This document shows positions 8,241 through 49,230 of a stretch of DNA of 64,000 nucleotides, piece after piece. The stretch comes from Antedon mediterranea (taxonomy: Eukaryota; Echinodermata; Crinoidea; Comatulida; Antedonidae). Under the pieces are notes generated by a model. The model saw only the letters and a program-made list of their open reading frames with translations. It did no database searches and was not told the origin of the DNA. The position numbers were made by a program, and so were the translations under genes. The DNA lies in assembly GCF_964355755.1 (NCBI RefSeq), contig NC_092677.1, positions 15,842,101 through 15,906,100 on the forward strand, given 5' to 3'. Within the stretch, counting starts at the first letter, position 1. Each line of letters opens with the position of its first letter.

Positions 8241-11200
8241 ATGCAAAACCTTGACATTACAAAGAAGGAATCTGGAAAAATATGGCACAGAAAACCTTCT
8301 GCGTCTTATGAAGATGGGTATGGAATATTTAGATTAACATTTAAATTGGTTATTGTGTGCACCAAATAGTAATTAACTAGGCCTAGCTAGGCCCGCCTCT
8401 AGTTCTAGGCCTACCTTACCTAGGCCTGACTGACTGAGGGGCCTAGCTAGCCTAGCCTACATTTAGTCTTACTACTAGCTAGCCTAGTTAGTAGAGGGTA
8501 GGGGAATCTACCTACTTAGTTTAAGAGACAGAGTAGTGGAGTAGGCTAGACTGGCTAGGCCTGGGAATATATACGCAGGTATAACTAGATACGGCCTACT
8601 ACTAGGCCTAAGGCCTACTAGGGAGCCTAGTAAGTAGTAGTCTAGGCCTAGATGAATAATAGTAATACTAATAGAAGAAGTAGGCCTAGACTACTAGAGT
8701 GTAGAGAGAGAAGAACAATAATGGCTGACCTGACCGTTCAGGCCTAGGCCTAGTAGGATAACATCAACTGCACTTATAATACAAAAACATTCAAATTTAA
8801 AACAGAACTTACTTTACAAAGACCCATTTCTTTTCAGAGTGATTGTCAAGATTAGTCATGGCTCTCCTGGACCCTTTCTGTCACATACCCATAACATTCG
8901 CTTTCTACATGCGACATTTGACACCTCCGGAGACCGATTTGTGGCTGGTGATCACCAAGGAAATCTGATAGTCTTTGACCTCACAAGAAACAGGTATTGT
9001 AGCACGGTCGCTCATATGTCAATAGTTTTTGGGTGACAATGTATTAATATGAATGGCACCATCGACAGTATCACCAAATAATGACGTATTTATTCGAAAA
9101 AAACACCCCACCATGGCATTGTTTAGGAGAGTATTTAGGGGACGTTTATTCGAGGGATATCAAAATGCTTAGTAAATTGTAGAAAATGTCATTCTACTAC
9201 AAATAGAAATGTGTCCAATACAATATTATGTATATATGCATATGATGGGGCATCTATTTGAGAGGGGGGAATTTATTCATTATGATGTTCTATGGGGGAA
9301 GGAGCATGTAAGGAAGAAAATTTAGTTGAATGAAACTATCATGTTGGACTGTACTAGCAATCAGCAAAACTTTTTCTGCAAGTAAACACAGGTTTAAGTA
9401 TGTTGCATTGTTACAGAGCTTGATGTTTTGATTTGCGTTGAGGTTGCATTTTAAATGCGAACTTCTACAAGCATGGCGCTTAATTTATATACAGTATTTA
9501 CATATATTGGTAAGGAAAAAATTTAATTTATTTAATTTATTTCCAACGTAAAAATTTATTTGAGTACTATATTTAACCTAAACTAATCGTCGTTCTTAAT
9601 ATCTTGTATGACTCTCTAGAATAAATAGCTTTAGTTTGTTTATCAAAAATTTTCTTTACAGGTTTCAATTAGTTCAGAAAACTGGAAAATCATGTACATC
9701 ATTAGCATTCAAGTTGCGAAGAAAAACAGAAGTACTTGCTACGTTCGCAGACTACTCTATTAAATGCTATGATACTGGTCAGTGTGCATTAAATTCTATG
9801 ATACTGGTCAGTGTGCATTAAATTCTATGATACTGGTCAGTGTGCATTAAATGCTTTGATACTGGTCAGTGTGCATTAAATGCTATGATACTGGTCAGTG
9901 TGCATTAAATGCTATGATACTGGTCAGTGTGCATTAAATGCTATGATACTGGTCAGTGTGCATTAAATTCTATGATACTGGTCAGTGTGCATTAAATGCT
10001 TTGATACTGGTCAGTGTGCATTAAATGCTATGATACTGGTCAGTGTGCATTAAATGCTATGATACTGGTCAGTGTACATTAAATTCTATGATACTGGTCA
10101 GTGTGCATTAAATTCTATGATACTGGTCAGTGTGCATTAAATTCTATGATACTGGTCAGTGTGCATTAAATGCTTTGATACTGGTCAGTGTGCATTAAAT
10201 GCTATGATACTGGTCAGTGTGCATTAAATGCTATGATACTGGTCAGTGTGCATTAAATGCTATGATACTGGTCAATGTGCATTCACTTGAGAAGTTTAAA
10301 GCCAATTAATAAAATACAAATACCTCGGCCTGTATCTTATAAAAGTGTGTCTTCTTAAAGAATTTTGATTGGTCAATTTAATATCACATGCTGTGCATTA
10401 TTTTTTCTCATTTTGAAAATGTTGTTATGGTGAAAGATGCATGACGGTCCTATTTAATTGAACAGTCAATCCATCAAATTTTTATATTCTAGTATTGAAG
10501 CAGAATTATTTGATTGGTGTCCTACTGTTCATAGAATTTGGTATGTAAGATAGCTTTTTTGCACCTTAAATATAGTGTTTTTTTAAAAATGTGTACTGTC
10601 ATTCAGATACCAAAGAATTGGTAAGCTGGATGAAAGGTCACAGGACCGCCGTGCATTCGATTTCTGTTCACGGATCTGGACGTTATGCAATCACTACCTC
10701 TGCAGATGCGGCATTGCTTTGGGATCTTGATACGTTTACAAGGAAGAGAAAGCTAAATGTTAAAGATAATGTTGATATTGTGAAGGTAGGTATTACATTT
10801 TGTTAACTATCATCTTAAAAGTGGCTATGGAATCTGACAGCAACTCAACTTATTTCAACATATTTGTCACTACTTAGAGTTGCTGACATAAATCACCTTT
10901 AGTGAGCTAGAGGCAGTCTTGCTAAACATTGTCTCCTTTTTTTACATCGTAGAATTCTATCTTAATTAATAAAAAAATATTCAAAACTTCTATCAACTAA
11001 AAGAGTCAAAGAAAGTGAGGTACATTCTACAGTCGCCACATATGCTAATATTGTTACAATCCTTCAGGAAAACACCTCTAGACTTTTTCAGTTTTCTTTA
11101 CAGTAGGGAGCTCCACAAAATGTGTCTTCTGCCATAATTAGCTAGCGGCCTAAAGAATATTAATACATAGTATACAGTAGATAGCCTACTCTAGTTAGTA

Positions 11201-14200
11201 GTTGTAGGCTACTAGTAGTAGATTTGTAGTAGTACAGTAGCTAGCCTCAGGCACTAGTTGGTAAAACCCAGTGCAGTTAACGATCCTTCAGGAAAACACC
11301 TCATGACTTTTTCAGTTATTAAAGTGCATATACAGTAGGGAGCCACAGCTACATAAATGTTTCTTCTGCCACAATTATTCATCTAGTACTTGATTCACAT
11401 TGTTCCATTAATCGATGTTACACCCTCTTGCAGGTCTTCTTTCTACCACTCAGTAACACCATCATTACGTGTTTTAAAGATGATTCCATCTTTGCATGGG
11501 AATCGGACACACTTAAATGTAAATATCAGCTACCATTACCAGAAGGTCAACGGCCTCAATACAAGGCTTTTGCAACAACTAGGTATGTCGATTCATGTCA
11601 AGACAGTAGAACTTCTATTCAAGACCCAACAAAGTAACCCCTTAATAGTGGTGTCTCCTGAATATTACTCATCGTTCATTTCATGAGAAAGTGTCCTCTT
11701 AATAGAGGTGTGTCCCATGAATATGTGTGCTGTGTCTCAAAGCAGAGGTTCTACTGTATTTTAAACATTTTGGGAAGAATGGCATGTCATACCTATACTT
11801 GAGCTTGAATATATATAAAAATCAAACACCTGCTGGTGGCGCTACATAAAAATAAAACAATTACTAGACACGTGTGACAAGTCTATCAACTATAACTAGA
11901 GAACATTTAGTGGTGGTTGTATATGTATGTATATATTGTATGTATTTTACGTTATGTATTTTACGTTTTATTCTACATTTTCATTTAATTTTAAAAAGAG
12001 ATGGCAGATTGTTAGTAGCAGGAGGTAAATCCAGATTCCTACATGTTTGGTGTCTGGACACACACAGTCTAATGAGGGTAATAGAGCTTCCTACCAAAGT
12101 GCATGTTGTTAAACAGCTGCAGTTTTTACCAGAGAGTTTTGATGGAGGCTCAGGCCAGGTGGGTTTTAAATGTTATGAATCATGTTTTCTGCGTTCTCAT
12201 TTTCCACTGAGTGAGTGGCCGAGCGGTTAAGACAGTGGAACTGTAATACATTGCCAAAACATAACAGACTCACTCGCTCCATGGTTCTGGTGGTAGAAGG
12301 ATTAGATAAGGATTATAAACTGTAGGTCAAGTGTACAGTACACATTCTGGATCTTGTGCACTTTAAAGAACACGTAGTACATCTTTCGAGACAAGTAGGG
12401 TGTTACCCCGATGGACTAGTACACACACACAGACACTGTCACTTATCATAAATTGACCTTCTGGGAGAACATTCTTTAACTGAAGAGGTCCCTGAGTTAG
12501 TATAAAAAATAAAAGAAATATGCCTCATCCCTCAGATGTGATGTTGAGTTGATGGTTTTATTCATAACATGCAAAATAAAGAACTAAGTACACTTTACAC
12601 TGGTCCCAGTCTAGTATACGTATTATCCGTTACACTGTGGCTGCCATAGAGGGCCAAATCCAGATTTACGCTGAGGATCATTGAAAGTATACATTTAATA
12701 TCTAGTTTTTAAATTTTTAGTTTGCTTTTTGTAGGTTGTTGGAGTACTAAGCCAAGATGGTATAATGCGTTTCATGAACATATTTAGTTGCCGACTTGAT
12801 TTTGACATTGGAACACTAGAGGATCGCATACTAAATGTAGACATTAGCCCAACTGGGCGCCATATTGTAGCCATTGTTGAAAGTGGTTGTATTAATCTGT
12901 ATTGTGTGTCTGCACTTACTGCTGAAAGAAACAAGGCAAGCAAAAACTAACCCATTTAAGAAATTAAGGTGTAATATAGATTACAATAAAAAAAAAAACC
13001 AGTAGGAAACAAAATTGCCATGTTGGTTTACAGTATACTGAACAAAATCAATGTAATAACCTTTGACACCATACTGTACCTCATCTTTCTTTTATTCATC
13101 CATAAGAAAATATAGTAAAAAGCATAAAAACATAAATATAGCAGAGTGAAATATGGACAAAAAGGAAGGAGAGAATAGGCAACTACTGTACATGCTTTCG
13201 AGGTCAACTTCTATTTCTTTTAGAAGATATCAAGCAAATCATGCAAAACATTATTAATCAAACACCTACATCAATGGGTTGTTTTGTATAATTTGTCTCA
13301 TATTATTCTGTATATATCACAATGATTATCTTATGATGTCATCATCATATTGTAAAAATTATTTTAATATTTAATATTGGTCATGACATCATTTAATTAA
13401 GACATTAAAAAGGGTTATTCTATAGTTTATGATAAAACCTTAAATTTCTTTTGGATTTTGTAGAAAACATATATTTTATGATACGTAGTGTAATCGGTCC
13501 TTTAAAATATTTTTTTTTTAACAATTTGCTTAGTGGATCTAGTATAAACTTTATTGTTTTTTACAACTTTAGCCACCACCTCCACTTGTGAAAATGGCAA
13601 CTCAGAAGCCTCGAGTTAGATCATACACCAAATCTCAAGCACAAGGAATGGGAAGAAGTAAGACAATCAAAACAGAAGAGCCTAGGCTGCCAATGGATGT
13701 GGCGTCCATTAAAGATACAGAGGCAGAAGTAAGTTGGCTTTATAGAAAACACATTCATTGTTCACTGAAAATTTTTTTTTTAATAGAAAATTTTAATTTC
13801 AAATAATACTGTACTGAAGGTAAAAATTGGATCAGAGAAACAAATTATTTACCTAAAACCGTAAAAATATTAATAAAATCCAATTTGTTTAAAGTTTGCA
13901 TGGCGAAATTAATTATGGTTGATATACTGTAAAGTTTGCAGTACACCATGTTCTGAAAAGAACTGTTGTACTGCAAACTTTGAAAAAATCTAACTTTGAA
14001 TACTGTAGGACTTTTTGTTAAAATTAACTTAATTTAAAAAAAATTAATTTATGTAAACTTTGATGAACAAGCATTTTATCTATATTTTGCTTTTCCAGGT
14101 TTCAGGTCTACCAGAAGGACTGGATATGAATCGCTTAAAAGCTATTCTGAAAGGTTATGGAGAGTATCCAGCTAAATATAGGTAAACAATTAACATGATG

Positions 14201-20200: not shown

Positions 20201-22541
20201 AGGGTCAGCAGGAAAACCTGGCACAGTAACCAGCTTGACCATCAACAAGATAGTACGGTCAGTTATTTTAAACCAAAAACGTGTAGTACTGAAATAGATT
20301 TAAAAATTAATTCACTCTCAACTCAGTATATATTTATAATGCTAACTTTGACCGATGATTCCAGGTGCAATGTATAATGTTTTAACTTTTTTGAGTTTTT
20401 GTCTGTTTTTAACATCTGCATATTATATTGTTTTACTTTTAGCATCAGGAAAAAGAATTTTAAGTTTTTATTTATTTTTTAAAATTTTATTTTTAGAGAT
20501 GAAAACCTCCCCTAAATAGTTGATATACATGAAACAGTAATATAATGTAATGATATATACAAAAATGACAACATATTTAAAACGTTTAGAAAAGTGAAAA
20601 TAAATATCGTGTATCTTGTTTAGTTAAGGGAAACAAATATACATTTTTAAATTGTGGTCTTTAAAATATGAAAACTCTTTGGTTTATATTTCGCTTTCAA
20701 GTAATTATTGTTACAAAAGGTACAACAACAAAGGTCTACATTACAGCATTGATAATGTTTCCATTTAATTGTTTTAATTAATTAATCCATTAATGTTATT
20801 TACTTTTCTTTATCTTTATAGAATGCTCAATGGAGGTTGGCTTTAGCTGATCAACGTAAAACAGACTTAGAATACCAGAATGAAGTAAAACATCGTCAAA
20901 GATTGGATGACATCGACAGGAAGTTACATCAGTTACAAGTAAATAATAATATAGTAATAGTCATATAGCATAATTCTTATATAGCACAAATAAGCAAGCT
21001 CTCAATGCACTGTACATTAATTAAAATAGAGTGGCAATAAGTTAAATTGTTTGAAAAGGAAATACTTCAACTGGATCTTGAATCTTGAGTTTAGAGTAGT
21101 ACACTGTCTGATTGAAATTGGTAGGGAATTCCACAGAGTTGGCGCTGCCACAGAAAATGCTTTTCCACCATATGTACTGTAGATGTCCTGTCCTGTTGCA
21201 TTGGTTTTGTCATAATTGGTGTGCCATATGAGTTTTTGACGTTTTCATATGTGTTTTTTCAATTATAATTATTGAAAACTAGGATTTGTCTTTGCATATT
21301 GTTTATAGAGTAATTGAGATACAACAGAAAGTAATGTTTTCTTTCGTTGTAGATAAGTACTCTGCAAACCAAATCAACCAATGAAGAGGAAGCTATCTGG
21401 GATACGATAGAAGAACTTAAAAGAGAAAAGGTTTGTCATTTCCCTGTTTCCCTATTTCTCAATAAAAATACTACTCTGTATAAAGACTGTCTACACTATC
21501 AAACTTGCCTATAGTATATATGGACATGATGATGTCATATCACTACCATATTTGGGCATATCACTACTATATTTGGGCACATCACATTTTTTTTGTCAAA
21601 CTAGTTTGATAGTGTAGACAGAGCTTTAGGTTGCCCAAAACTGTAAACATGTAAGCCTAAATATGTTCACCTTTTGATTTGTAGGATCTAATTTGGGAAA
21701 TGTTGATTAAACAAAAAGAGAGAGAAGGCAATGCTGATGTAATTCAACCTGTCATTCAAATTCAGTCTGACAATTCACCCCAACAGACAAATGATGAATG
21801 TAAGTATGATTGTTTTACATACTTTCTAGTTCAAGAAACATGTTATTGAATTCTACTACATACCCCTGAAACTTGAATGGAAGAGTATGCATTTTGATAT
21901 TTATTGCTCCTTGTGTTTTGTTGACATAAATTTTGCGGTACACCACATATAGTTCTGAAAAGAAAGCTACAATAGCAAGATTCATACCAGTCTAACCCAA
22001 TCTCCTGGACTTTCTGCATGATCACTCCTGCCGGGACAATCAAAGTATATTGATCGAAATGTCGAGAAACTCAAAAGTTTTTTTCTTCAGAACTATACGT
22101 TGGTGGTGTACCGCAAACTTTATATCAACATTTCGCAATGCAAACCTTTGAAAAATATATCCTTGTGTTTTATAACTAGCTGCATTCTATATACAAAAAA
22201 ATATAAGAAAGGTACTGGCTCAATGGTAAGGATAGGCGTCACGTTTGCATTCTTAGGCAAGATGCTTTACTTTCATTACTTTCACTCACATCGTATATAA
22301 CTATTGCAAAAGAAGAATTTAGGCGGTACTCTCTGAAGCTGCCATGGACCAGATGAAGATGCTATCCAAACAATTTTAATGGATTGTGTGCCACAATATT
22401 TCTCATCTTTTTTATGTTTTTGTTTTGATAGTTTCGTTGGATAGAGGAAGACTTGTATTTCCAGAACGTGAAAAAGAGCTGCTTCAACATGTTCGTGAAT
22501 TAAGAGCCAAAATAGCATCGGACAAGAGTCATCGACCATGA
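8241..22541 (+). CDS. TBC1D31: TBC1 domain family member 31 (WDR67), centriolar satellite protein
   Basis: 22 exons: 8241-8317, 8838-8993, 9662-9777, 10607-10785, 11434-11582, 11999-12158, 12735-12935, 13573-13728, 14099-14181, 14581-14727, 15193-15326, 15885-16018, 16323-16502, 17085-17264, 17774-17979, 19068-19203, 19679-19771, 20117-20257, 20822-20938, 21353-21430, 21685-21799, 22432-22541. All phases agree, giving 1015 aa (human about 1066). Order: N-terminal KESGKIWHRKPS, WD40 propeller to about residue 345, proline-rich linker, TBC domain about 410-680 (GYGEYPAKYR, MFIWR), then a charged coiled coil from residue 685 (AQEREQIRQDEMDYL). The stretch where a TBC arginine finger (IxxDxxR) would lie reads VHQDYPI, so GAP activity is doubtful. 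Intron 7 has a GC donor (12936). Known role: centrosome/centriolar satellites. Its 3' end converges on the kinase gene. Confidence 0.95.
8378..8760. repeat. AGGCCTA/CCTAGG-rich short-palindrome block in TBC1D31 intron 1
   Basis: Dozens of overlapping AGGCCT, CCTAGG, GCTAGC and CTAGTAG palindromic hexamers follow each other with no fixed period, in contrast to the surrounding AT-rich intron. Similar but smaller patches occur at 11160-11230, 29710-29850, 42660-42805 and 43262-43320. Confidence 0.6.
9759..10280 (+). repeat. 29-bp minisatellite, 18 units, spanning the TBC1D31 exon 3 donor
   Basis: Exactly 18 tandem units of 29 bp (522 bp). Unit 1 is partly coding: its first 19 nt are the last bases of exon 3 (SIKCYDT) and the junction ACTG|GTCAGT at 9777/9778 is the splice donor. 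Every later unit repeats the exon end and the donor-like GTCAGT; only unit 18 has GTCAAT. Three unit variants (ATGCTATG, ATTCTATG, ATGCTTTG) alternate in a partly periodic order, which points to block-wise expansion. Confidence 0.95.
12215..12515 (+). mobile_element. tRNA-derived SINE (GAGTGGCCGAGCGGTTAAG head), TBC1D31 intron 6
   Basis: The head GAGTGGCCGAGCGGTTAAGA resembles a type II tRNA (Leu/Ser) A box. The body carries GGTTCTGGTGGTAGAAGGA, GTGCACTTTAAAGAAC and ACATCTTTCGAGAC. A second copy with the same phrases in the same order is at 18604-18900. It starts 57 bp after exon 6 and is in the sense orientation. Confidence 0.75.
13931..13985. repeat. Small hairpin MITE, TTTGCGGTACACCA family
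   Basis: AAAGTTTGCAGTACACCATG is mirrored by TTGTACTGCAAACTTT around a GTTCTGAAAAGAAC core. It is a shortened relative of the element at 21930-22125, which uses the same ends. Confidence 0.5.
15362..15560 (+). mobile_element. tRNA-like SINE, TBC1D31 intron 11
   Basis: TATAGCTTGGTGGTTAACAT (A-box-like) and GGTCCAGGGTTCAATCCTGA (B-box-like) lie at tRNA-like spacing. The sequence after them has no tRNA fold, so this is a SINE head and not a tRNA gene. The right end is not sharply defined. Confidence 0.5.
17311..17480. repeat. Dispersed repeat shared with 30412-30545
   Basis: AACAACTTGTAAC, TTTGCATAGTGT, GAAATTTTGTGAAG and GTGAAATCTCAGGAGAAAAC occur here in the same order as at 30412-30545 in RBBP5 intron 3. 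Both copies lie in introns in the same orientation. No ORF. Confidence 0.55.
18604..18900 (+). mobile_element. tRNA-derived SINE, second copy, TBC1D31 intron 15
   Basis: GAGTGGCCAAGCGGTTAAGA at the head, AAGGGTTCGAGGC as a B box, then GGTTCTGCTGGTAGAACGAG, GTGCACTTTAAAGAAC and ACATCTTTCGAGACGAG. It ends in CCCTATATAAATAAG and an A-rich tail, an L2/CR1-like 3' end. It pairs with 12215-12515; a fragment of the head is also at about 6365-6385. Confidence 0.75.
19808..19972. mobile_element. MITE with AAGGGTCTT termini, TBC1D31 intron 17
   Basis: The left end AAGGGTCTTTCCCACC and the right end GTGTGAAGACCCTT are inverted partners. Inside, TTTTGTTTTCACGTGG is mirrored by ATTGTGAAAACAAAACA. About 165 bp, no ORF. 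Confidence 0.55.
21486..21633. mobile_element. MITE, GCTCTGTCTACAC family, copy 2, TBC1D31 intron 20
   Basis: A near-complete palindromic copy: ACTGTCTACACTATCAAACT at the left and AGTTTGATAGTGTAGACAG at the right, with CCATATTTGGGCA repeats between. 148 bp. Confidence 0.75.
21930..22125. mobile_element. MITE with TTTGCGGTACACCAC termini, TBC1D31 intron 21
   Basis: TTTTGCGGTACACCACATAT then AGTTCTGAAAAGAA at the left is mirrored at the right by TTCTTCAGAACTATACG and GGTGGTGTACCGCAAAC. Arms are about 35-40 bp. A one-end relic is at about 2331-2350. Confidence 0.6.
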
Positions 22542-22753: not shown

Positions 22754-24539
22754 TTAGTTGTGGTTCTTTGTGAAATTAAATAATTCGAATTCAATGTGAT
22801 CAATTAAGTCTTCGATGGCTGGTCTTTGGTCTGGTCTGGAATGAAGACAGGGTCCGCTGATATCCATTAGCGGCATTAATGCTTTGTTAGCGGCAATTCC
22901 TTCAATTATAACACCAAAACTGTAGATGTCTGAGGCAAATGTCGGTGGTGTGTTGATGTTATACAGCTCTGGTGCATGTTCCAGGTGATCTTGCATGAGG
23001 TCGAAGACATCAGCTTTGTCGGTATCGTTCAATTGGAAGAAATCAAACGGTGCTTCTGCGGTGCAAACTGAGCCAAAATCGACAATTTTTGCGGAGATAC
23101 GAGGACCCTTGTTGTAAAGAAGAATATTGCGGCTAGCCAGGTCATTGTGAATCAAACTATTCTTCTGCAGTATTTCGATTCCTTCTGCGATGTCCAAAAT
23201 TATGTGAAAACAATCAACCGTGGTAATATGTGGTGAACCACTTGCCAAAGCTTTCATCAATGATGTTGATTTGAATGATGTTGAGTCGCCAACAAATTCC
23301 ATAACAATGGCCCATTGTGTGTCGGATGTTACTGCTTCACAAACACCATATACCCGTGGAAACACGTCACTTTCTTGGGATAACACCTTCATTATTCTAG
23401 CTTCAAGGGAAACTGCCAGCTTGTCGATGAACCGATTGAATTTGTTAGACTTGTTGGTTGTTGTGATAGCCTTAACAGCCACAAGTTTGCCATTACAATC
23501 TCCAAGGCGATTAAGACAAACTTGCCCATACGACCCAGAGCCAAGTACTACCTATAAATTAAAAAGATAATCATTTAATATTAGTTTAGACGTTTTCAAA
23601 CACATGTGCAGTTTTTTAAAGATCGATTAACCGTATACTTCATAGATACTTTGTCAGGATATTGAAATTCAGAACCGTTTGAATTCAATTTAACCTACCC
23701 GATGATTATCCTTCGTTACTGGATACAGACAATCAGATGCCAAACATTGAACATGGTTTTTAAGTTTTCCATCCATTATCTGGATTTCAATTGACATGCA
23801 GTTTATCCAGTGTTTCGAAATTAGAGAAGTCTTGAAGTCTTGTTTGATCAGGTGATTGCTACAAATTGATGATTGATCGTAAGAGGTCAGTGAAGTGATG
23901 CTTGGACTAGACAGACTTGAGTAATGTCCATTGTTCGTAAGGATGTTACTGTTCCTTCCATCTGGTGTGTATCCAATTGCCGGTACATTATTGATAACGT
24001 CCAGGGAGCACCATTTTCTTATCCAGTTAAGAGCTATCATTGAGTCAGCCTCGCCGTTTCTACGTCCAAAGATGCGTCCATCCAGAATGAGGAGATCTCT
24101 TGCAAATCCACTTATTATGCCGTTGTCAATGTCAAATGGCAATTCTTGATTTTCATATGCGATGGCTGATGTTTGAGGTAGGGTCACGATAGCAAGTCCA
24201 TATATGATTTGAATAATTGTGATTCTTAAGGCAGGGGGAACATTACACCAGGTTTGAAACGAAGTTTGATACTCATTTGTCGTATTTTCATCATCATTCA
24301 CATTAGAGAAACAGCACATGACATATTTGTTGAAGAAGCCTGAAATGGCTGTTCGGCTGAAACAAATACATATTTATTATTTTTTCATTGTATTTGCTGG
24401 TTGGGGTGTCCTCGGATATTCATTCATTCATCGTGGTACTTTTTCTGATGAAATAAAATTGTATTATAACTTACCTGTTCTTAAAACATTTACTGGGTTT
24501 CCAGGATTTAAAGAAGGTTTTCCACGACCTCCCAGGCAT
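22754..24539 (-). CDS. Tyrosine-kinase-like protein kinase with HND catalytic loop, novel N-terminus
   Basis: Three exons on the minus strand: 24539-24475 (start ATG), 24356-23699 and 23551-22754. Phases agree and give 506 aa. The first two exons (residues 1-241) match no domain I know. Exon 3 is a whole kinase domain: glycine loop GSGSYGQV (245-252), VAVK with K268, catalytic loop HNDLASRNILL (H376-D378), VDFGS (D399), HAPEL in place of APE, DIYSFGVII, and CLHSRPDQRP near the end. The loop resembles tyrosine kinases (HRDLAARN), but the HRD arginine is Asn, so it is a non-RD kinase; the lysine and both aspartates are kept, so activity is plausible. No signal peptide or clear membrane segment. 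A minus-strand AATAAA at 22657-22662 overlaps the TBC1D31 3' side. A broken paralogue lies at 45045-46027. Function unknown. Confidence 0.8.
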
Positions 24540-25609
24540 TGCTGAAACAAAAAGGACGCACGTGTTAATATTTAGTAGGTTTAAATTCAAGTTTATATAC
24601 TGGCACGACCCGTGTTTCTTCGACTATATATAAATAGGCCTAGATGCCCTATACATAATATAATTTTAATTGTTGCTTACCTCTGGAGGTTTAATAGAAA
24701 AACTTAATTTGAAAGTATTAAATCTAAAACACAAACAGAAAACCAACACAAAATGAGAAAATCTACCTATTTCTAATGGACTAACGTTTGGTGTACTTTG
24801 TAGTAGCGCTTTAAATTGATTATATCGAATTAAAAAACAATTTAAATATAGGACTACCTAATTTTATTTTTAAGAATTAAAAACTTTAATAATCTAAATA
24901 AATAAGCAGAAACATACTGAGCTTTGTAGATTGCGTGTTCACTTTTGAAAATGCATCCAAGTAATGTTTTGTTTAGTTGTCATGCAGCTACCATTGTAAC
25001 TATGTTACCATGAGACACGCGTGCGCATGGAAGAGTGCGCACGAGATACGGAAGCGCATGGCGTATTTGTATAGCAACAAACGTTGATGGCGTGTGTTAA
25101 GCTCTACACACTCTTTTTTGTCAATATTATAGTGAAGACAGCTTTAGACATGGCCAGAGGCATTCTTTTAAATTATGCCTCTCGGACATATGTTATTATC
25201 GTCACAATGTGAATAAAGTGTAGGCCTATACTGTTCAGGAAACTTTTCTAACGCAGGCCTAGGTCTTCTTGTATTTGTTCAGCAATCCTACTAAAAGACA
25301 CAGTATTATCTAAAGTTTTCGTAGTTGGCCCCTCCTATATATCGCACTAAAAGTATTTGTAAATCTTGAACGGAAAAAAAGTTAGTCGGCCTGCTCAGAG
25401 CATCGTGTCGTGTCCATAGCACACTGACAGTACAGCCAACCATGACATTCATGTTGAATTCTTTAATCTTATTTGTTTTAAATAAAAATGTACTCAATTC
25501 ATTTCATACGCTCACTCTTCAACAAATTTTATTCTAAATATCTGTATAGAAATACAATTATGTTGATTAGGCCTATATTTATGTTGTTTTGAATCTACGG
25601 ACTGGGGTG
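24540..25609. other. Intergenic between kinase and LINE; decayed MITE
   Basis: Presumed upstream region of the kinase gene. A worn copy of the GCTCTGTCTACAC MITE is at 25099-25150 (TTAAGCTCTACACACTC ... ATAGTGAAGACAGC). CpG is enriched at 25015-25085 (ACGCGTGCGCATGG, GTGCGCACGAG), which could be a promoter for the kinase or an unseen exon. No ORF of note. Confidence 0.45.
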
Positions 25610-27668
25610 TTTTCTCAGAATCCGAAAATTCTATCGATGTTGAAGTGAATGCTGTTTGTTCATACATAAACTATTGTGCTGATACCATTATACCAAAAAT
25701 GTACCCAAATTGCAAGCCATGGTTTTTACATGAAACGAAATGTCTCATAGTTAAAAAGAAAAAAGAATATGCAGCCGGTAAGAAAGATGAAGCGAAGCGA
25801 ATTCAGAAGGAGATTGATGCTAGTATATTAAAAGCAAAACAAAAATATAAAGCTAAAATGGAAAAACATTTCAAGGATAAAGACACGCATTCGGCCTGGA
25901 AGGCAATGTATATGCTCACTGACTACAAAGAAAAACCGAAAAAATACGTAGGTGAATGTGACAAGAAGTTTGTGGACTCCTTAAACAAATTTTTCTGCAG
26001 ATTTGATGATGGTCAATATGAAACAGACATGTTGGCTACCAGTGAGAAACTTAACAATCTTAAAGATAATGAATATAATAATAATAATAATAATAATAAT
26101 ATTGGTAATGATGATAATAATAATGTTCTTGTTAATGAAGACGAGGTCTTAAGAGAATTTGCACGTGTAAAAGTCAATAAGGCAACTGGACCAGATGGGA
26201 TTTCAAACAGAATTTTAAAAGTGTGCAATATCCAACTATGTCCAATTTTTACTCATATTTTTAATATTATTTTTAGAAATGGTACTGTTCCACGCATATG
26301 GAAAACTTCTATCATAAATCCATTGCCTAAAGTTAATAAACCTAGTGTACCAAAAGATTTTAGACCAATTGTAATTACTTCAAATTTAATGAAATGCTTA
26401 GAAAGGTTGATTGTTTCTAGACTTAAGGAAAATATTGGTAATGCAGATAAGAATCAATTTGCATACAAGAAAAATAGAGGGGTTGACGATGCTGTTAATT
26501 CTTATCTCCATGATGCATATCATCACCTTGATTCAAAAAGAAATTATGTACGGTCTATATTTTTCGATTTCTCCGGTGCTTTTAATACTATTTTACCACA
26601 TGTTTTAATTGATAGATTATTAAGTTTTAATGTCTCACCTCAGCTCGCCAAAGTTATATATAGTTTTTTGATTAATAGACCGCAGATGGTTAAGTGCAAT
26701 GGTATCCTATCCAACAAAGAATCTACCAGTGTTGGAGCTCCTCAAGGATGTGTTATCTCTCCAATTTTGTTCTCTTTTTATTCTAGTAGTTTTAATACTT
26801 TAAGTAAGTGGTTTTCTTTGCGATAGTAAGCATTATGTAAATGGTAAATGAATTTGTTAATGAAGTTGGAAGATTTGTTAATTGGTGTGAAGATATGAAC
26901 TTAATACTTAATATTACTAAAACCAAAGAGATGATAATAGATTTTCGTAAAACCGCAGTTGAACATAATGTAATAACTATTAAAGAAACCGAGGTTGAAA
27001 GAGTAACCCAATACAAATACTTAGGTACTATAATTGACAACAAATTAAAATGGGAGTCAAACTCTCTCATGATTTCCAAGAAGGCATCTCAAAGGCTCTA
27101 CTTTCTCAGAAAACTCAAGCAAATTAGAGTTGATAACACTATTTTAATTCTATTTTATCAAAGTATTATTCAAAGTATTTTATCTTTTAGCATTGGATGT
27201 TTTTATGGTAACTTTACTGAAAATGATAAGAAAAATATTGAGAGACCACGTAAAATTGCACAACGTATTATTAAAGCTGATCTAACGCCTTGTTCATTTA
27301 TCTATGAAAAGAGTATTCTAAAAAAAGTAAACAATATTATGAAAGACCCCACTCATCCGTTACATTACTGTTATAACTTAAATAGATCAGGCATTAGGCT
27401 ACGACCTCCAAGAGCAAATCTTTGTAGAACTAGAAAATCCTTCGTTGTAAATAGCATTCATATTTTTAATTCTAATGTAAGACGTTAATGCAATTTTTAT
27501 TAGTTTTACATTTTTAACAGTATTTTTTACTTTTTATCTTGTATTTTTAATCTGTTATAATACTGCACGTTTTTAAATTGTTGCAATACTGTTGTTTTAA
27601 TCTACCAAGCAAAGTGAATTTCCATTTTTATGGACAAATAAAATTTCTTGAATCTTGAATCTTGAATC
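25610..27668 (+). pseudogene. LINE retrotransposon (Jockey superfamily, CR1/Rex1-like), 5'-truncated and broken
   Basis: Non-LTR reverse transcriptase in two frames. Frame one runs from about 25610 to 26826 and carries VNKATGPDGISNRIL, DFRPIVITSNLMKCLERL, IFFDFSGAFNT and GAPQGCVISPILF. Frame two (about 26841-27488) carries NWCEDMNLILNITKTKEM, YKYLGTIIDNKLKW and DPTHPLHYCYN. The polymerase YADD box should lie at the junction (about 26800-26840), but only TTTGCGATAG remains, with a frame change. No endonuclease domain is present upstream, so it is truncated as well. An (AAT)n run codes for an Asn tract at 26078-26125. The 3' end is AATAAAATTTCTTGAAT followed by tandem GAATCTT heptamers at about 27647-27668, a CR1/Rex1-type tail. 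A second copy lies antisense at 52115-52775. Confidence 0.88.
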
Positions 27669-29630: not shown

Positions 29631-32600
29631 ATGAATTTAGAACTGTTGGGTAAGTACCCATTACGTTGACTAACATGAAAATGCGTACAGAATTATTGTT
29701 TAAGATTCTAAGCTGGTTAGGTCTAGCTAGGCTAGGCCCTAGCTCTAGGCTATGTATGCCCAACTTTACTGAACTGACTCTTCGCGTTGTGAGCCGAGGT
29801 TCAGTCAGATCACATACCTACTAGAGGCGTAGGCCTAGACTTTTTTGTTGCTAAAATGTCAACCATCTTATCAACATATTAATACTAACTAATACACTAC
29901 TAGCCTAGCTAGCCCAAATTTGAATGAACAGTGCTGGTACCTATTTATTTATGTGTGTGCACTCCAATGTATTATGTGTGGTACAACAAATTTTACAAAT
30001 TTATAATATTATTATTAGATTTTTTGTTTCTTTTGTCATGTAGAGTCATTTGGTCAAAATTATCCTGAGGTAAGTAGAAAAATGAAGAAAGATTTTTGTT
30101 TATAGTTAAAAAATATTGCAACATTCTTTCTTGTTACTGTTTGTTAGTGAAAAAAATTACAATGAAGTACTGTAATTGCACATTTTTAATCTGCACACTT
30201 TTACATGTATTTGTAGGAAAGTGATGGCACCCTGGACTGTATCAGTATTGCACTAACATGTTGCTTCAACAAGAGAGGGAGCCTTCTTGCTGTTGGTTGT
30301 AACGATGGCAGGATCGTAATCTGGGATTTTTTGACCAGAGGTATTTGTAAGATCATCAGTGCTCATGTTCACCCTGTATGCTCACTGAGGCAAGTGTCAC
30401 GACAAAAATGAATGTATTATACCCTTTTCACACCTGCAAAAAGTAACAACTTGTAACCATGTTTCGCATAGTGTGAAGACAATTTTGTGGAAATTTCACT
30501 GGGTCCCTTGTGAAATCTCAGGAGAAAACACACAGATGAGAGGCCTGTTTTTGTTCCGTGTGTGTATTTCCCTGGTATTAAAATGACGGTTCCAGGACGA
30601 TTCGGCCTGGGACTATTCGGCCCAGTTTTGGGCCAAAACATCCCACTTTGTGGGCCGAAACGTCTCACTTTAGACCAAATTCATATTAAATTTTTTTTTT
30701 GTATTTATCGAGTTTTTAAAGGTGTTTATCAATCCGTATTTTATTGATATTGACAATGTTGATATAAAAAAACGTAATTTTATATTCAATGTATTATTTC
30801 GTGCATTCGCCAAGTGGCCAACAGAGGGCGTAACTTGTTTACATCATCATTTTCGACAATGTTTTCAAAATATTTGCTTTATTGCATCTTTATTCCTAGT
30901 AGTACTACCCTATTGTCTCTCTGAAAATAAAGTTTGGGGAAAAAGCTTATTTTATGCTTATAAAATGCATATCAAAGCCGATAAATTTAACTGTGCCGAA
31001 TCGTCTCAGGGCCGAATCGTCCCGGGCCGAATAGTCGCGGGCCGAATCGTCTCGTTACCAAAATGACCAATCATAGGAATCAACTATGCTTTCTCCCGAG
31101 ATCTCTCATGGTTCGCGGTGTTAGTACACTCACAGCCACTGATCATACCTGGGCCCTCTGAGAGACCAGTCTTTGACTGCAGAGGTGATCCAGTATAAAT
31201 AAATAATAAAAATAATAATAGTGTCCAATATATATAAAATGATTACATTTTGTGTTTGTTTATTCTTTCAGTTGGAGTCGAAACGGTCACAAACTGTTGA
31301 GTGCATCTACTGACAACATGGTCTCAATATGGGATGTTCTATCTGGTGACTGTGATTACCGCTTCAGATTTCCTTCTCCAGTTCTGAAGGTTATGTTTAA
31401 TCCACGAAAAAGGTACAAAAATTTAACCACTTTCTGTATGACTACAATTAATATCAAGAAGTGATAAAATACTAATACAATTGTATCAGAAAGCTTGGTA
31501 AATCATGTCAATCAATGAATTCTACTACAGTTAAAAACGTGTTGGAATACTATATTGTGTATATATGCATGTGACTGAGCATTTATTCAAGGAAATAAAA
31601 ACCCCGGGTGTTTATTTGAGGGGGAATTTATTCGAGGCAGGCATTTACTCAAAGCAGGACTATTGAATAAATATGGTAAATTGTGCTGATAATATGGGTG
31701 GAAATAGTCTAAAGAAAAAAAAAATATTATATCCAAAATCTGCCAATTGTAAATGGTCTAATTTGCATACAATGAGTGTCACTTTATTTTGTTGTCACTG
31801 TAGAGATCAAATGCTTGTTTGTCCTATGAAGCACACCCCAGTGGTGCTTAGCACTGATGGCACACATTCAGATATACAACTAGAAGAAGACGTAAGTTTA
31901 ACAGAATAAACATTGACAATGGTTTGATAGTAAAGAGGCTTCTTGGTGCAGAAGCACCTGCCCATAGTACAAACCTAATCCTTGTTGGCTTAAGTTAATT
32001 TCCTCAAAAAACATTTTTACTTGTAACTTTTGTATTGTCTTATTATTCTATATTTGTATGGTACCAGGCATAGCTCTGTAAATTCCCAAAAAGGAAATTA
32101 CACCCTAAAGCTCTGTCTACACTATCAAAATGTATGTGACAACAAATGTGATGGACCTGTATATGGACATGATGATGTCAGTTCACTACCATATTTGGGC
32201 ACATTACACTTAAGAGGTCTCCTAATTAGTTAATTATAACTATTGAGTAATTCATACTTAATATATATAAATATTTTATTTGCAGTCTGATCTAAATATT
32301 GTTGCAACATTCGACCGCAGAGGAAGTCATATTTATTCGGGCAATGCCAAAGGAAAGGTAACAAGATTTGTTGTGACAATCACTAATATAGTATTGTAAA
32401 CACGGTTTAGTTTATAACCAGTTATAATAGGTCTCCTTATTGACTGGTTGTGTACTAACCCGTTATAATAGGTCTCCTTATTGACTGGTTGTGTACTAAC
32501 CAGTTATAATAGGTCTCCTTATTGACTGGTTGTGTACTAACCAGTTATAATAGGTCTCCTTATTGACTGGTTGTGTACTAACCAGTTATAATAGGTCTCC

Positions 32601-35600
32601 TTATTGACTGGTTGTGTACTAACCAGTTATAATAGGTCTCCTTATTGACTGGTTGTGTACTAACCAGTTATAATAGGTCTCCTTATTGACTGGTTGTGTA
32701 CTAACCAGTTATAATAGGTCTCCTTATTGACTGGTTGTGTACTAACCAGTTATAATAGGTCTCCTTATTGACTGGTTGTGTACTAACCAGTTATAATAGG
32801 TCTCCTTATTGACTGGTTGTGTACTAACCAGTTATAATAGGTCTCATTATTGACTGGTTGTGTACTAACCAGTTATAATAGGTCTCCTTATTGAGTGGTT
32901 GTGTACTAACCAGTTATAATAGGTCTCCTTATTGAGTGGTTGTGTACTAACCAGTTATAATAGGTCTCCTTATTGACTGGTTGTGTACTAACCAGTTATA
33001 ATAGGTCTCCTTATTGAGTGGTTGTGTACTAACCAGTTATAATAGGTCTCCTTATTGACTGGTTGTGTACTAACCAGTTATAATAGGTCTCCTTATTGAC
33101 TGGTTGTGTACTAACCAGTTATAATAGGTCTCCTTATTGACTGGTTGTGTACTAACCAGTTATAATAGGTCTCATTATTGACTGGTTGTGTACTAACCAG
33201 TTATAATAGGTCTCCTTATTGAGTGGTTGTGTACTAAGCAGTTATAATAGGTCTCCTTATTGACTGGTTGTGTACTAACCAGTTATAATAGGTCTCCTTA
33301 TTGACTGGTTGTGTACTAACCAGTTATAATAGGTCTCCTTATTGACTGGTTGTGTACTAACCAGTTATAATAGGTCTCCTTATTGACTGGTTGTGTACTA
33401 ACCAGTTATAATAGGTCTCCTTATTGAGTGGTTGTGTACTAACCAGTTATAATAGGTCTCCTTATTGACTGGTTGTGTACTAACCAGTTATAATAGGTCT
33501 CCTTATTGAGTGGTTGTGTACTAACCAGTTATAATAGGTCTCCTTATTGACTGGTTGTGTACTAACCAGTTATAATAGGTCTCCTTATTGAGTGGTTGTG
33601 TACTAACCAGTTATAATAGGTCTCCTTATTGACTGGTTGTGTACTAACCAGTTATAATAGGTCTCCTTATTGAGTGGTTGTGTACTAACCAGTTATAATA
33701 GGTTTCCTTATTGACTGGTTATATACTAAATTTGTAACAATTGTGTTTTTATCTTGAAACTAAAGGTCATAGTTGTGAACACAAAAACACTGAAAGTTGA
33801 TGCAAGTTTCAAAGTTAGTACAGGTTCCAGCAATACAACAGCAATCAAATCTATTGAATTTGCAAGAAGAGGAGAGTAAGTAAATATACAGTAGGCAGTT
33901 TGGGCAACCTTTGTGTGCGTATGAGTAAAACTTAGGTACTACGTCACACATTCTGTGTAGCTTTACTTAAATACTGTACATGATACTCGTTTTCTATGCA
34001 GATTTATTCGTTGAAAATTAAGTTGATAAAGGTGGCATAGATTATATTTTACCAAGAACATTTGACCTAAAGCTCTGTTTACACTATCAAACATTATGTG
34101 ACAAACAAATGTGATGTGCCCATATACATGATGTTGGCATATCACAACCATATTTGGGCACTAGTTTAATAGTGTAGACAGATAGCCAACCCATCGATGT
34201 TCAAGTGGTTATGTTTTATTTTATATCTGCATTATTAAAAATAGTAACTCTCTTTTCTTCTCCCTTGTGTCAGTTGTTTCCTAGTAAATACTGCTGACCG
34301 TGTGATCCGAGTTTACGAAAGTCGGGAAGTATTAGCATGTGGCAAAGATGGTGAGCCAGAACCAATTCAAAAACTGCAGGATCTGGTAAATAGGACAGCA
34401 TGGAAGAAATGCTGTTTCTCAGGGGATGGAGAATACATTGTTGCAGGTATGGTATGCAGCAAAAAATCAAAAGAATAACAGTTTAACATGATTGGCTGCA
34501 TATTATAGGTTCAAATTCTGACATAGGCATAGACTAGTACCACAGTATGTTTAGGGATCATGTGAAAATTATGTTACTGCAGTAACTATATTTTTACTGC
34601 AGCTGATATAAATATGCAGGTCATGGGTTAAAATTCTGACATAAGCATCTAGACTAGTACTAGAGTATTTTTAGGGATCATGTCTAAAATAATCTTACTG
34701 CAGTAACTCAAGTTTTTACTGCAGCTGCTGTAAATCCTCAGGTCATGGGTTAAAATTCTGACATAAGCATCTAGACTAGTACTAGAGTATTTTAGGGATC
34801 ATGTCTAAAATAATCTTACTGCAGTAACTCAAGTTTTTACTGCAGCTGCTGTAAATCCTCAGGTCATGGGTTCAAATTCTAAAATAGGCATAGACTAGTA
34901 CTAGAGTATTTTTGGGGATCATGTCAAAATGATCTTACTGCAGTAACTCAAAAGTTTTTACTGTAGCTGCTGTAAACCTGCAGGTCATGGGTTCAAATTC
35001 TGACAAAGGCATAGATAGTACTAGAGTTGTCTATGGGATCATGTCAAAAGTATGTTACTGCAGTAACAAAATGATTTTAGTTTTTGCAATGGTTACAATG
35101 AAGCAGTTTGTGAGGCATTCATGCAATAAACAGTGTGTATATGTTTATCCAAAGAAAGTTTGCTAAATAATTGCATAAAAAAAATGTAGTACTGCAGTAA
35201 CTGCAGTAGAATAATTTTGACATGGTCCCTTAGGCAAATGCTTTCCTGAATTTGTCATGTCATTTGCCATGTACTATTTGTGAGTCCAATGTACATAAAT
35301 GCACGATTTTACTTTAAAAAGAGTATTTTCTCCCTGCCTGCTGACAATGAATGATTGTAGCTGCATTGTGACTGAAATCCTCAGTAAATGGAGGAATGTT
35401 TAATTGACATAAGTCTTTTTTATATGAAGGTTCTGCCAGACAGCATGCTCTTTACATATGGGAGAAGAAATATGGTAACTTAGTCAAGATCCTTCATGGC
35501 ACCAGAGGTGAACTGCTATTGGACGTTGTGTGGCATCCTGTTCGACCAATCATTGCATCTGTTTCTAGTGGCGTTGTGTCACTATGGGCACAGAATCAAG

Positions 35601-45044: not shown

Positions 45045-46027
45045 TTAATGTTGATTCTTTGTGAAATTAAATAATTCGAATTCAATGTGATCAATCAAGT
45101 CTTCGATGGCTGGTCTTTGTTCTGGTCTGGAATGAAGGCAGGGTCCGCTGATATCCATTAGCGGCAGTAATGCTTTGTTAGCGGCAATTCCTTCAATTAT
45201 GACACCAACACTGTAGATGTCTGAGGCAAAGGTCGGTGGTGTGTTGATGTTATACAGCTCTGGCGCATGTTCCGGGTGATCTTGCTGTAGGTCGAAGACA
45301 TCGGCTTTGTCGGTATTGTTCAACTGGAAGAAATCAAACGGTGCTTCTGCGGTGCAAACTGAGCCAAGGTCGAACATTTTTGAGGAGATACGAGGACCCT
45401 TGTTGTAAAGGAGAATATTGCGGCTTGCCAGGTCATTGTGAATCAAAGTATTCTTCTGTAGTATTTCGATTCCTTCTGCGATATCCAAAATTATGTGAAA
45501 ACAATCAATCGTGGTAATATGTGGTGAACTACTTGCCAAAGCTTTCATTAGTGATATGTTGATTTGAATGATGTTGAGTCGCCAACAAATTCCATAACAA
45601 TGGCCGATTGTGTGTCTGATGTAACTGCTTCACAAACGCCATAAATCCGTGGAAACACGTCACTCTCCTGAGACAGAACCATCATTATTCTAGCTTCAAA
45701 TAAAACTGTCAGCTTGTCGATGAACCGATTGAATTTTCCCGATCGAGTGGTTGTTGCGATAACCTTAAAGCTTGGTTCCCACTAGAACGTAACGCAAGGA
45801 CGTAAACGCAACGTAAGCGTTTTAACCAATGACAAGCGAATTTATAGATAGTTAGCAATCACAAGCGAATAAAGCCATCGCTTGGGATTGGTCAATTCAC
45901 TTGCGTTGCGTTACGTCCTTGCGTTGCGTCGCTAGTGGGAACCACGCTTAACAGCCACGAGTTCGCCATTAGAAACTTCAAAACGATGAAGTAAAACTTT
46001 TCCATATGTACCAGTGCCAAGTACTAC
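45045..46027 (-). pseudogene. Kinase-exon pseudogene, paralogue of 22754-23551
   Basis: Minus-strand copy of the last exon of the kinase gene, from the acceptor (46027; VVLGTGTYGKV) to the stop (45045). It still has the acceptor AG and intron-like sequence beyond, so it arose by DNA duplication, not retroposition. Breaks: a 179-bp MITE inside the VAVK codons (45769-45947), and a 2-bp insertion at about 45553-45556 that shifts the frame after DSTSFKST. The DFG box is altered to DLG (FDLGSVCTAEA). The remaining 167-codon frame keeps HNDLASRNILL and RPEQRPAIEDL. No copy of the two upstream exons was seen nearby. Nucleotide similarity to the intact gene is high, so the duplication is fairly young. 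Confidence 0.88.
45769..45947. mobile_element. piggyBac-like MITE inserted in the kinase pseudogene
   Basis: Ends AGCTTGGTTCCCACTAG and CTAGTGGGAACCACGCT, flanked by TTAA at 45765-45768 and 45948-45951. The empty site is known: the intact paralogue has a single CCTTAACAGCCAC there (23470-23482). Internal arms repeat AACGCAAGGACGTAAACGC and its inverse. 179 bp, no ORF. Confidence 0.92.
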
Positions 46028-46134: not shown

Positions 46135-46734
46135 CAGCAAACACATAACGTTTTTCTAACGTTCTTGTTTGGTTATTGTTTGGTTAGGTTCACTACGAAC
46201 GTTAAAAGAACATTAACATAACGTTCACTTAACAAGACTTATTCGTCGGACATTCTTTCAACGTTGTAAAAACGTTTATAATAACGTTAATATATAACAT
46301 TTTCCAAACTTGTTTTATTAACATTTACCTAACGTTAAATAAACGTTCTACAAAATGTTACGTTTTACCTCATACAGAACATTTATAATAACGTTTATGT
46401 AACGTTTGAAGGACATTTACAATAACATTCAAAATGTAACCATTACAAAACATGTTTTGATAATGTTCATCTAATGTTAGAATAACGTTTACAATAATGT
46501 CCAAAAGTAACATTTACAAAACTAATTCAGTAACATTTGTCTAACGTTAATTGAACGTTCACAAAAACGTTGCAATCAATATGTTTTTATAACATGCTGA
46601 TAACGTTAATCAGACAGTATAAAATAACGTTCAAACTCAACATCTGTCTAACGTTCTAAATAATATTTATATAACGTCTGTAAAACATTCACAATAACAT
46701 TGAAAAGCAACATCTACATAACTGTTTTAAATAA
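46135..46734. repeat. Diverged AACGTT-rich leader of the satellite
   Basis: It begins CCCAGCAAACACATAACG and continues with loosely repeated 20-35-bp phrases built on TAACGTT and ACGTTCA, without the strict 199-bp period. It probably represents the ancestral short-period form or the eroded edge of the array. Confidence 0.7.
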
Positions 46735-49230
46735 TATTTGCCTAACGTGCAATCAACGTTCCCAATAACGTTGTAAATAAACCATTAGAAAACATATTGA
46801 TAACATTTTGCGAACGTTATACAAACGTTTACAATAACGTTCAAATATAACATCAACATAACTTTTAAATAACGTTGAAATAACATTTACAATAAACGTT
46901 AAAATGTGACATCTATATAACATTTGTTTTTAACATTAGCCTAACGTGCAATGAACGTTCCCAATAACGTTGTAAATAAACCATTAGAAAACATATTGAT
47001 AACATTTTGCGAACGTTATACAAACGTTTACAATAACGTTCAAATATAACATCAACATAACTTTTAAATAACGTTGAAATAACATTTACAATAAACGTTA
47101 AAATGTGACATCTATATAACATTTGTTTTTAACATTAGCCTAACGTGCAATGAACGTTCCCAATAACGTTGTAAATAAACCATTAGAAAACATATTGATA
47201 ACATTTTGCGAACGTTATACAAACGTTTACAATAACCTTCAAATATAACATCAACATAACTTTTAAATAACGTTGAAATAACATTTATAATAAACGTTAA
47301 AAAATGACATCTACATAATATTTGTTTTTAACATTGGCCTAACGTGCAATGAACGTTCCCAATAACGTTGTAAATAAACCATCAAGCAACATTTCAATAA
47401 CATGTTTCTAACGTTATACAAACGTTTACAATAACGTTCAAATATAACATCAACATAACTTTTTAAATAACGTTGAAATAACATTTACAATAAACGTTAA
47501 AATGTGACATCTATATAACATTTGTTTTTAACATTGGCCTAACGTGCAATGAACGTTCCCAATAACTTTGTAAATGAACCATAAGAAAACATATTGATAA
47601 CATTTTGCGAACGTTATACAAACGTTTACAATAACGTTCAAATATAACATCAACATAACTTTTAAATAACGTTGAAATAACATTAACAATAAACGTTAAA
47701 AAATGACATCTACATAACATTTGTTTTTAACATTGGCCTAACGTGTAATGAACGTTCCCAATAACGTTGTAAATAAACCATCAAGCAACATTTCAATAAC
47801 ATGTTGCTGACGTTATACAAACGTTTACAATAACGTTCAAATATAACATCAACATAACTCTTTAAATAACGTTGAAATAACATTTACAATAAACGTTAAA
47901 ATGTGACATCTATATAACATTTGTTTTTAACATTGGCCTAACGTGCAATGAACGTTCCCAAGAACGTTGTAAATAAACCATTAGACAACATTTTAATATC
48001 ATTTTGCAAACGTTAAAAAAACGTTTACAATAACGTTCAAATATAGCATCAACATAACTTTTTAAATAACGTTGAAATAACATTTACAATAAACGTTAAA
48101 ATGTGACATCTATATAACATTTGTTTTTAACATTGGCCTAACGTGCAATGAACGTTCCCAATAACGTTGTAAATAAACCATTAGACAACATTTTGATATC
48201 ATTTTGCTAACGTTAAAAAAACGTTTACAATAACGTTCAAATATAACATCAACATAACTTTTAAATAACGTTGAAATAACATTTATAATAAACATTAAAA
48301 TGTGACATCTACATAACATTTGTTTTAAACATTCCCAATAACGTTGTAAATAAACGATCATAAAAAGGTTTGATAACATTTTGCTAACGTTATACAAACG
48401 TTTACAATAACGTTCAAACATAACATCAACATAACTTTTTAAATAACGTTGAAATAACATTTACAATAAACGTTAAAATGTGACATCTATATAACATTTG
48501 TTTTTAACATTGGCCTAACGTGTAATAAACGTTCCTAATAACGTTGTAAGTAAACCATTAGACAACATTTTGATATCATTTTGCTAACGTTAAAAAAACC
48601 GTTTACAATAACGTTCAAATATAACATCAATATAACTTTGAAATAACGTTGAAATAACATTTACAATAAACGTTAAAATGTGACATCTATATAACATTTG
48701 TTTTTAACATTGGCCTAACGTGTAATGAACGTTCCCAATAACGTTGTAAGTAAACCATTAGAAAACATATTGATAACATTTTGCGAACGTTATACAAACG
48801 TTTACAATAACGTTCAAATATAACATCAACATAACTTTCAAATAACGTTGAAATAACATTTATAATAAACGTTAAAAAATGACATCTACATAACATTTGT
48901 TTTTAACATTGGCCTAACGTGTAATGAACGTTCCCAATAACGTTGTAAATAAACCATCAAGCAACATTTCAATAAGTTGTTGCTAACGTTATACAAACGT
49001 TTACAATTTAAAACAAACGATTACATAACATGTTAACATTTTTCTAACGTTTTAGAAACATCCAAACATTCTTTTTTAGATAACGTTGAAACATTTACAA
49101 CAACCGTTTAAATTTAACATTTAGTACTAACGTGAAATGAACATTAACAATAACTTTGTAATGAAACCATTACATTTTGAAAACATTTTGCTAACGTTAT
49201 ACACACCTCTTGATAATAACGGGATCCTAT
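46735..49230. repeat. 199-bp satellite, about 12 units, AACGTT-rich
   Basis: CCATTAGAAAACATATTGAT occurs at 46782, 46981 and 47180, a period of 199 bp; further units continue with indels to about 49030 and fade to about 49230. Each unit contains 6-8 AACGTT palindromes, is itself made of diverged 25-30-bp subrepeats, and carries the phrase AACATCAACATAACTTTT. Recurrent 69-codon open frames on the minus strand (start MLCRCH or MLYRCH) are by-products of the repeat. Confidence 0.92.

Follow-up and report, generated by a model that had tools for sequence, protein, structure and literature searches.

A minisatellite spanning the exon 3 donor of TBC1D31 in the crinoid Antedon mediterranea

TBC1D31 and the array at the end of its third exon

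The stretch of the Antedon mediterranea genome analysed here (hereafter the window; 64,000 nucleotides of contig NC_092677.1, positions 15,842,101 to 15,906,100) carries on its forward strand a gene that extends from a start codon at 8241 to about the last recognised exon, at 20377, its 3' end being approximate. By sequence comparison this gene is TBC1D31: exon-by-exon tblastn gave 37-78% identity to the human protein (used as a yardstick), the protein matches WD40 propellers, and the gene and its Der1-family neighbour (PF04511; DERL1-like) are arranged head to head, as they are at the human locus. Exons 1-12 splice in phase to one open protein. Exon 3 (9662-9777, 116 nt) is preceded by the acceptor TTTACAG and ends in GATACTG, while exon 4 (10607-10785) follows the acceptor GTCATTCAG, both having been placed by tblastn and by splicing in phase. 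Their join (9777/10607), GAT ACT G|AT ACC AAA, translates as DTDTKELVSWMKGH and continues the protein as ...DYSIKCYDT|DTKELVSWMKGHRTAVHS..., in agreement with the gene and exon boundaries originally assigned from the letters of the window. Exon 7 apparently has a GC-AG donor at 12936 (AAG|GCAAGC).

Across the boundary between exon 3 and intron 3 lie 18 head-to-tail units of ATTAAATGCTATGATACTGGTCAGTGTGC, each 29 bp long (9759-10280), which were called by TRF (period 29, 18.1 copies, 96% matches, 0 indels, 9759-10283) and then listed singly. With its unit length inside the range of about 10-100 bp and its many copies arranged head to tail, the array is a minisatellite. Copy 1 comprises the last 19 nt of exon 3 and, with the donor ACTG|GTCAGT, 10 nt of the intron; copies 2-18 all lie within intron 3, and the authentic exon end is that of copy 1, at the edge of the array. 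The original prediction had described the unit and its 18 copies in just this way, and both the TRF call and the unit-by-unit listing bear it out. An 18-unit array cannot have arisen by chance, and in the 354-Mb assembly the 29-bp unit has 18 matches, every one of them at the TBC1D31 locus.

Donor 1 (9778-9783) and donors 2-17, which follow at a spacing of 29 nt (9807-10247), all read ACTG|GTCAGT (17/18). Six of the later copies (5, 6, 7, 10, 16 and 17) match copy 1 at each of the 29 positions, so local donor sequence cannot distinguish them from it. The last donor (10271-10276) reads GTCAAT, a G>A change at +5 by which most U1 pairing would be lost (predicted duplex -2.6 kcal/mol, versus -6.9 for the other donors of the array). 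The predicted set of 17 identical or near-identical decoys therefore stands for the 16 that match donor 1 across the whole 9-mer and not for donor 18, which is crippled. The remaining donors of TBC1D31 score -4.8 to -12.2 in the same U1 prediction, and donor 1 is thus ordinary for the gene.

The 18 units carry four distinct variants, G8T, A11T, G28A and G24A, the last being the +5 change of the final donor. No sign of selection on the donor was seen within the array, one of the four variant sites falling in the 9-nt donor against about 1.2 expected by length (9/29). Ordered by variant the units read A BBCAAA BCAA BBBCAAA, and the blocks BBCAAA, BCAA and BBBCAAA point to exchange of several units at a time. 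In the single-copy state an ATT would stand at either flank (CTCT|ATTAAATGC to the left, GTGC|ATTCACTT to the right), a microhomology that would fit slippage.

Reading frame and accessibility of the 18 donors

Each of the 18 donors was joined to exon 4 and translated. Donor 1 (GTCAGT) enters exon 4 in matching phase with the frame open, and it is the sole productive donor (1/18). Donor 2 adds 29 nt and meets a stop soon after the exon 4 join (...SMILIPKNW*), and a TAA at 9819-9821, which is in frame and becomes exonic with any donor from the third on, is included by each of donors 3-18; donors 4, 7, 10, 13 and 16 regain the frame yet still contain it. Both outcomes, IPKNW* for donor 2 and the in-unit stop for all later donors, had been anticipated. 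Since the other donors are non-productive and the gene is intact, it is a fair inference that donor 1 must be strongly favoured.

Folding predictions suggest one way in which the donors may differ. The 522-nt array folds 9 SD better than dinucleotide shuffles (z-score -9.1), which is partly to be expected of any self-pairing repeat. Accessibility was taken as the probability that the donor 9-mer is open in a local fold of 200 nt; it was predicted at 0.011 for copy 1 and 0.0086 for copy 18, with a median of 0.0002 for the copies between them, so that donors 1 and 18 come out 57 and 43 times as accessible, respectively, as the median inner donor. The openness of donor 1 is nearly unchanged by the array (0.0139 with one unit, 0.0114 with 18). 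For 60 control arrays with the same 9-mer and shuffled flanks the median ratio of first to inner openness was 1.5; 3% of these controls reached the 25.9 computed for a homogeneous array of the TBC1D31 unit. These predictions are weakly suggestive of inner donors that pair mutually while donor 1 stays relatively open.

Self-complementarity was also considered as a cause of the expansion, and rejected: the 29-bp unit folds no better than shuffled units, its self-complementarity not being significant (P 0.06; tandem MFE z -0.9), which also weakens the case for pairing between the donors. Unlike this unit, those of two other arrays in the window (41 bp and 121 bp) do fold better than shuffled units.

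Arrays over splice junctions elsewhere in the genome and in other animals

Further arrays were sought in 72 stretches of about 3.2 kb each, centred on tektin, helicase and TBC-protein exons and covering 208,573 distinct bases, a small and exon-centred sample in which arrays with a period of at least 20 and at least 2.5 copies were counted. Among the 23 distinct arrays found, two clearly span a splice junction, both at 3' splice sites; arrays near splice sites in stretches L036 and L089 and in the RBBP5 intron were excluded from this class, and that of L079 was left outside the clear count.

The first of the two, in a DDX54-like gene (L041, 1857-1958), has three copies of a 39-bp unit containing TTTTTCAG|GTCGTGTAG, the last copy being the real exon start, and splicing at an upstream acceptor would add 13 or 26 residues without leaving the open frame. 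The second, in a CHD1L-like gene (L039 and L091), repeats a 90-bp unit made of the intron end and the exon start in about 23 copies, 22 with the exact motif and one diverged (20815402 to 20813423 on contig 11). About 60 kb away a CHD1L-like paralogue (L040) has a single copy, with flanks 96.8% identical downstream and 92.2% upstream. Between the two paralogues copy number thus differs, about 23 units against one, and the pair shows that the array is a recent copy-number change, the splice site being otherwise the same. A third array, in a gene that is presumably DDX6-like (L059, 1784-2133), starts within the last codons and, in five copies of 67 bp, carries the apparent stop codon on into the 3' region.

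The name mirages was given to tandem repeats over exon/intron boundaries when these were described in Adh3 of amphioxus (Canestro et al. 2002 NAR 30:2871, as described in PMC3087553); the same account gives units of 10-72 bp and somatic instability at Adh3. In the amphioxus globins BflGb6 and BflGb9 mirages occur at both boundaries and differ in length between haplotypes, and regular splicing is reported not to be disturbed (PMC3087553). Two more lancelet genes with mirages are PGBD5 and TnC (PMC3902484). Each unit of the TBC1D31 array likewise holds the junction, splice signals stand in many copies and the authentic exon copy lies at the array edge; the array is a further mirage, of a kind already described and known mainly from amphioxus. 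Mirages are found at 5' and 3' boundaries alike. The TBC1D31 array differs in belonging to another phylum, the echinoderms, and in the near identity of its 18 donor copies. The genome sequence itself speaks for an echinoderm and against an amphioxus: its GC content is 29-35%, and its tektins match the sea urchin sperm doublet structure 8snb (PMC10973386) far better than mammalian tektins (290.6 versus 155.9 bits), with an N-terminal stretch to which the mammalian proteins have no match. A COX1 search for the mitochondrial genome gave no hit. A limited literature search found no earlier report of mirages in this lineage, and the sampled arrays suggest that they occur in a deuterostome phylum other than that from which they were described.

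Two other systems are comparable in part. The minisatellite of human IFI6 (6-16/G1P3; Turri et al. 1995 NAR 23:1854, as described in PMC4526556 and PMC3618361) also supplies several donors at one exon end; its downstream repeat donors are used, giving three mRNA species according to PMC4526556, whereas in TBC1D31 the alternatives would all carry a premature stop. Intron gain by tandem genomic duplication (as outlined in PMC3443670 and PMC4974935) similarly involves a tandem duplication containing splice signals; in those cases a new intron is formed, whereas the TBC1D31 array lengthens an existing one. In human segmental duplications, too, introns are altered by tandem repeats that lie where they meet their exons (PMC2812944).

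Origin of the array and competing explanations

The explanation that we favour, and consider probable, is that this boundary-spanning minisatellite is a nearly neutral expansion, with donor 1 kept in use. It would have begun as a short duplication that crossed the exon 3 donor and lay between two ATT triplets, and slippage or unequal exchange would then have multiplied it, several units per block. Copy 1 would have kept exon and donor complete, and each later copy would have arisen inside the intron; the expansion would be tolerated because copy 1 retains both, and would be close to neutral, with the protein unchanged, provided that the spliceosome stays on donor 1. Several features may keep it there. 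Donor 1 would complete, with the upstream acceptor, the normal 116-nt exon (609 nt with donor 18), and would be the first to be transcribed. The extra donors may pair mutually (AUACUGGUCAGUGU can pair with itself, G-U pairs included), so that the array would be most open at its two ends, of which the 3' one holds the crippled donor 18. The block order of the unit variants, the comparable arrays at the DDX54-like and CHD1L-like genes and the amphioxus mirages, which are reported to leave splicing undisturbed (PMC3087553, PMC3902484), support this explanation. Against use of donor 1, work on two competing donors found that the donor closer to the acceptor may prevail, both outcomes being obtained depending on SRSF1 and hnRNP A1 (PMC5585400); on that basis late donors of the TBC1D31 array might be used.

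A broader form of this explanation strikes us as unlikely though worth stating, namely that mirages are recurrent at donors and acceptors in this genome and are tolerated because self-pairing repeat RNA hides the inner copies, position and structure alone deciding which copy is used. If it were true, such arrays would be natural competition experiments among dozens of identical sites. What decides the choice when splice sites are equal has been worked out mostly with engineered pre-mRNAs. TBC1D31 offers a conserved gene with 17 identical donors of which only the first makes protein, that is, a competition with a known correct answer, and its array may allow position, transcription order and RNA structure to be separated from donor strength. 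For acceptors the CHD1L-like pair would offer the corresponding test, its one-copy paralogue serving as an internal control.

It had also been proposed that copy number tunes expression, transcripts spliced at decoy donors being lost to nonsense-mediated decay so that the number of units sets TBC1D31 output. We regard this as improbable. All 17 other donors are indeed non-productive, and 16 of them equal donor 1 over the entire 9-mer; however, non-productive decoys come automatically when the unit is not a multiple of 3. In the DDX54-like and CHD1L-like arrays the unit length is divisible by 3 and the decoys stay open in frame, wholly in the former and partly in the latter, so decay is no common design. 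Moreover the donor is not excessively conserved within the units, and the amphioxus arrays are reported to splice normally (PMC3087553, PMC3902484). Together the in-frame decoys elsewhere, the lack of donor selection and the undisturbed amphioxus splicing speak against the proposal.

Less probable still is an assembly artefact, the true genome having fewer units or one. Tandem arrays are often mis-sized, and the BflGb6 mirage of amphioxus was wrong in a draft assembly (PMC3087553), but the TBC1D31 units vary in an ordered pattern instead of being one string copied, the array is anchored in exon 3 on its left and in unique intron on its right, and comparable arrays exist at other genes. That exon 3 ends elsewhere, the array being plain intron or coding sequence, is scarcely credible: the boundary is fixed by homology alone, but phase and residues at 9777/10607 continue the protein (DT|DTKELVSWM) and read-through past exon 3 hits the TAA at 9819.

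Apart from the array in TBC1D31, other features were noted in the window. An intron of RBBP5 is nearly filled by a 41-bp minisatellite of 32 copies (32415-33729), which begins 57 nt past the donor and stops about 35 nt ahead of the acceptor; its units contain AG|GTCTCC and the inverted arms AACCAGT/ACTGGTT, and they fold much better than shuffled units. A satellite-like array of 12 copies of 199 bp, with many AACGTT palindromes, occupies 46666-49007. Two related kinase-like open frames on the reverse strand (22754-23551 and 45045-45629) are apparently recent copies of each other, and reverse-transcriptase-like open frames at 25567-27488 probably belong to a broken non-LTR retroelement.
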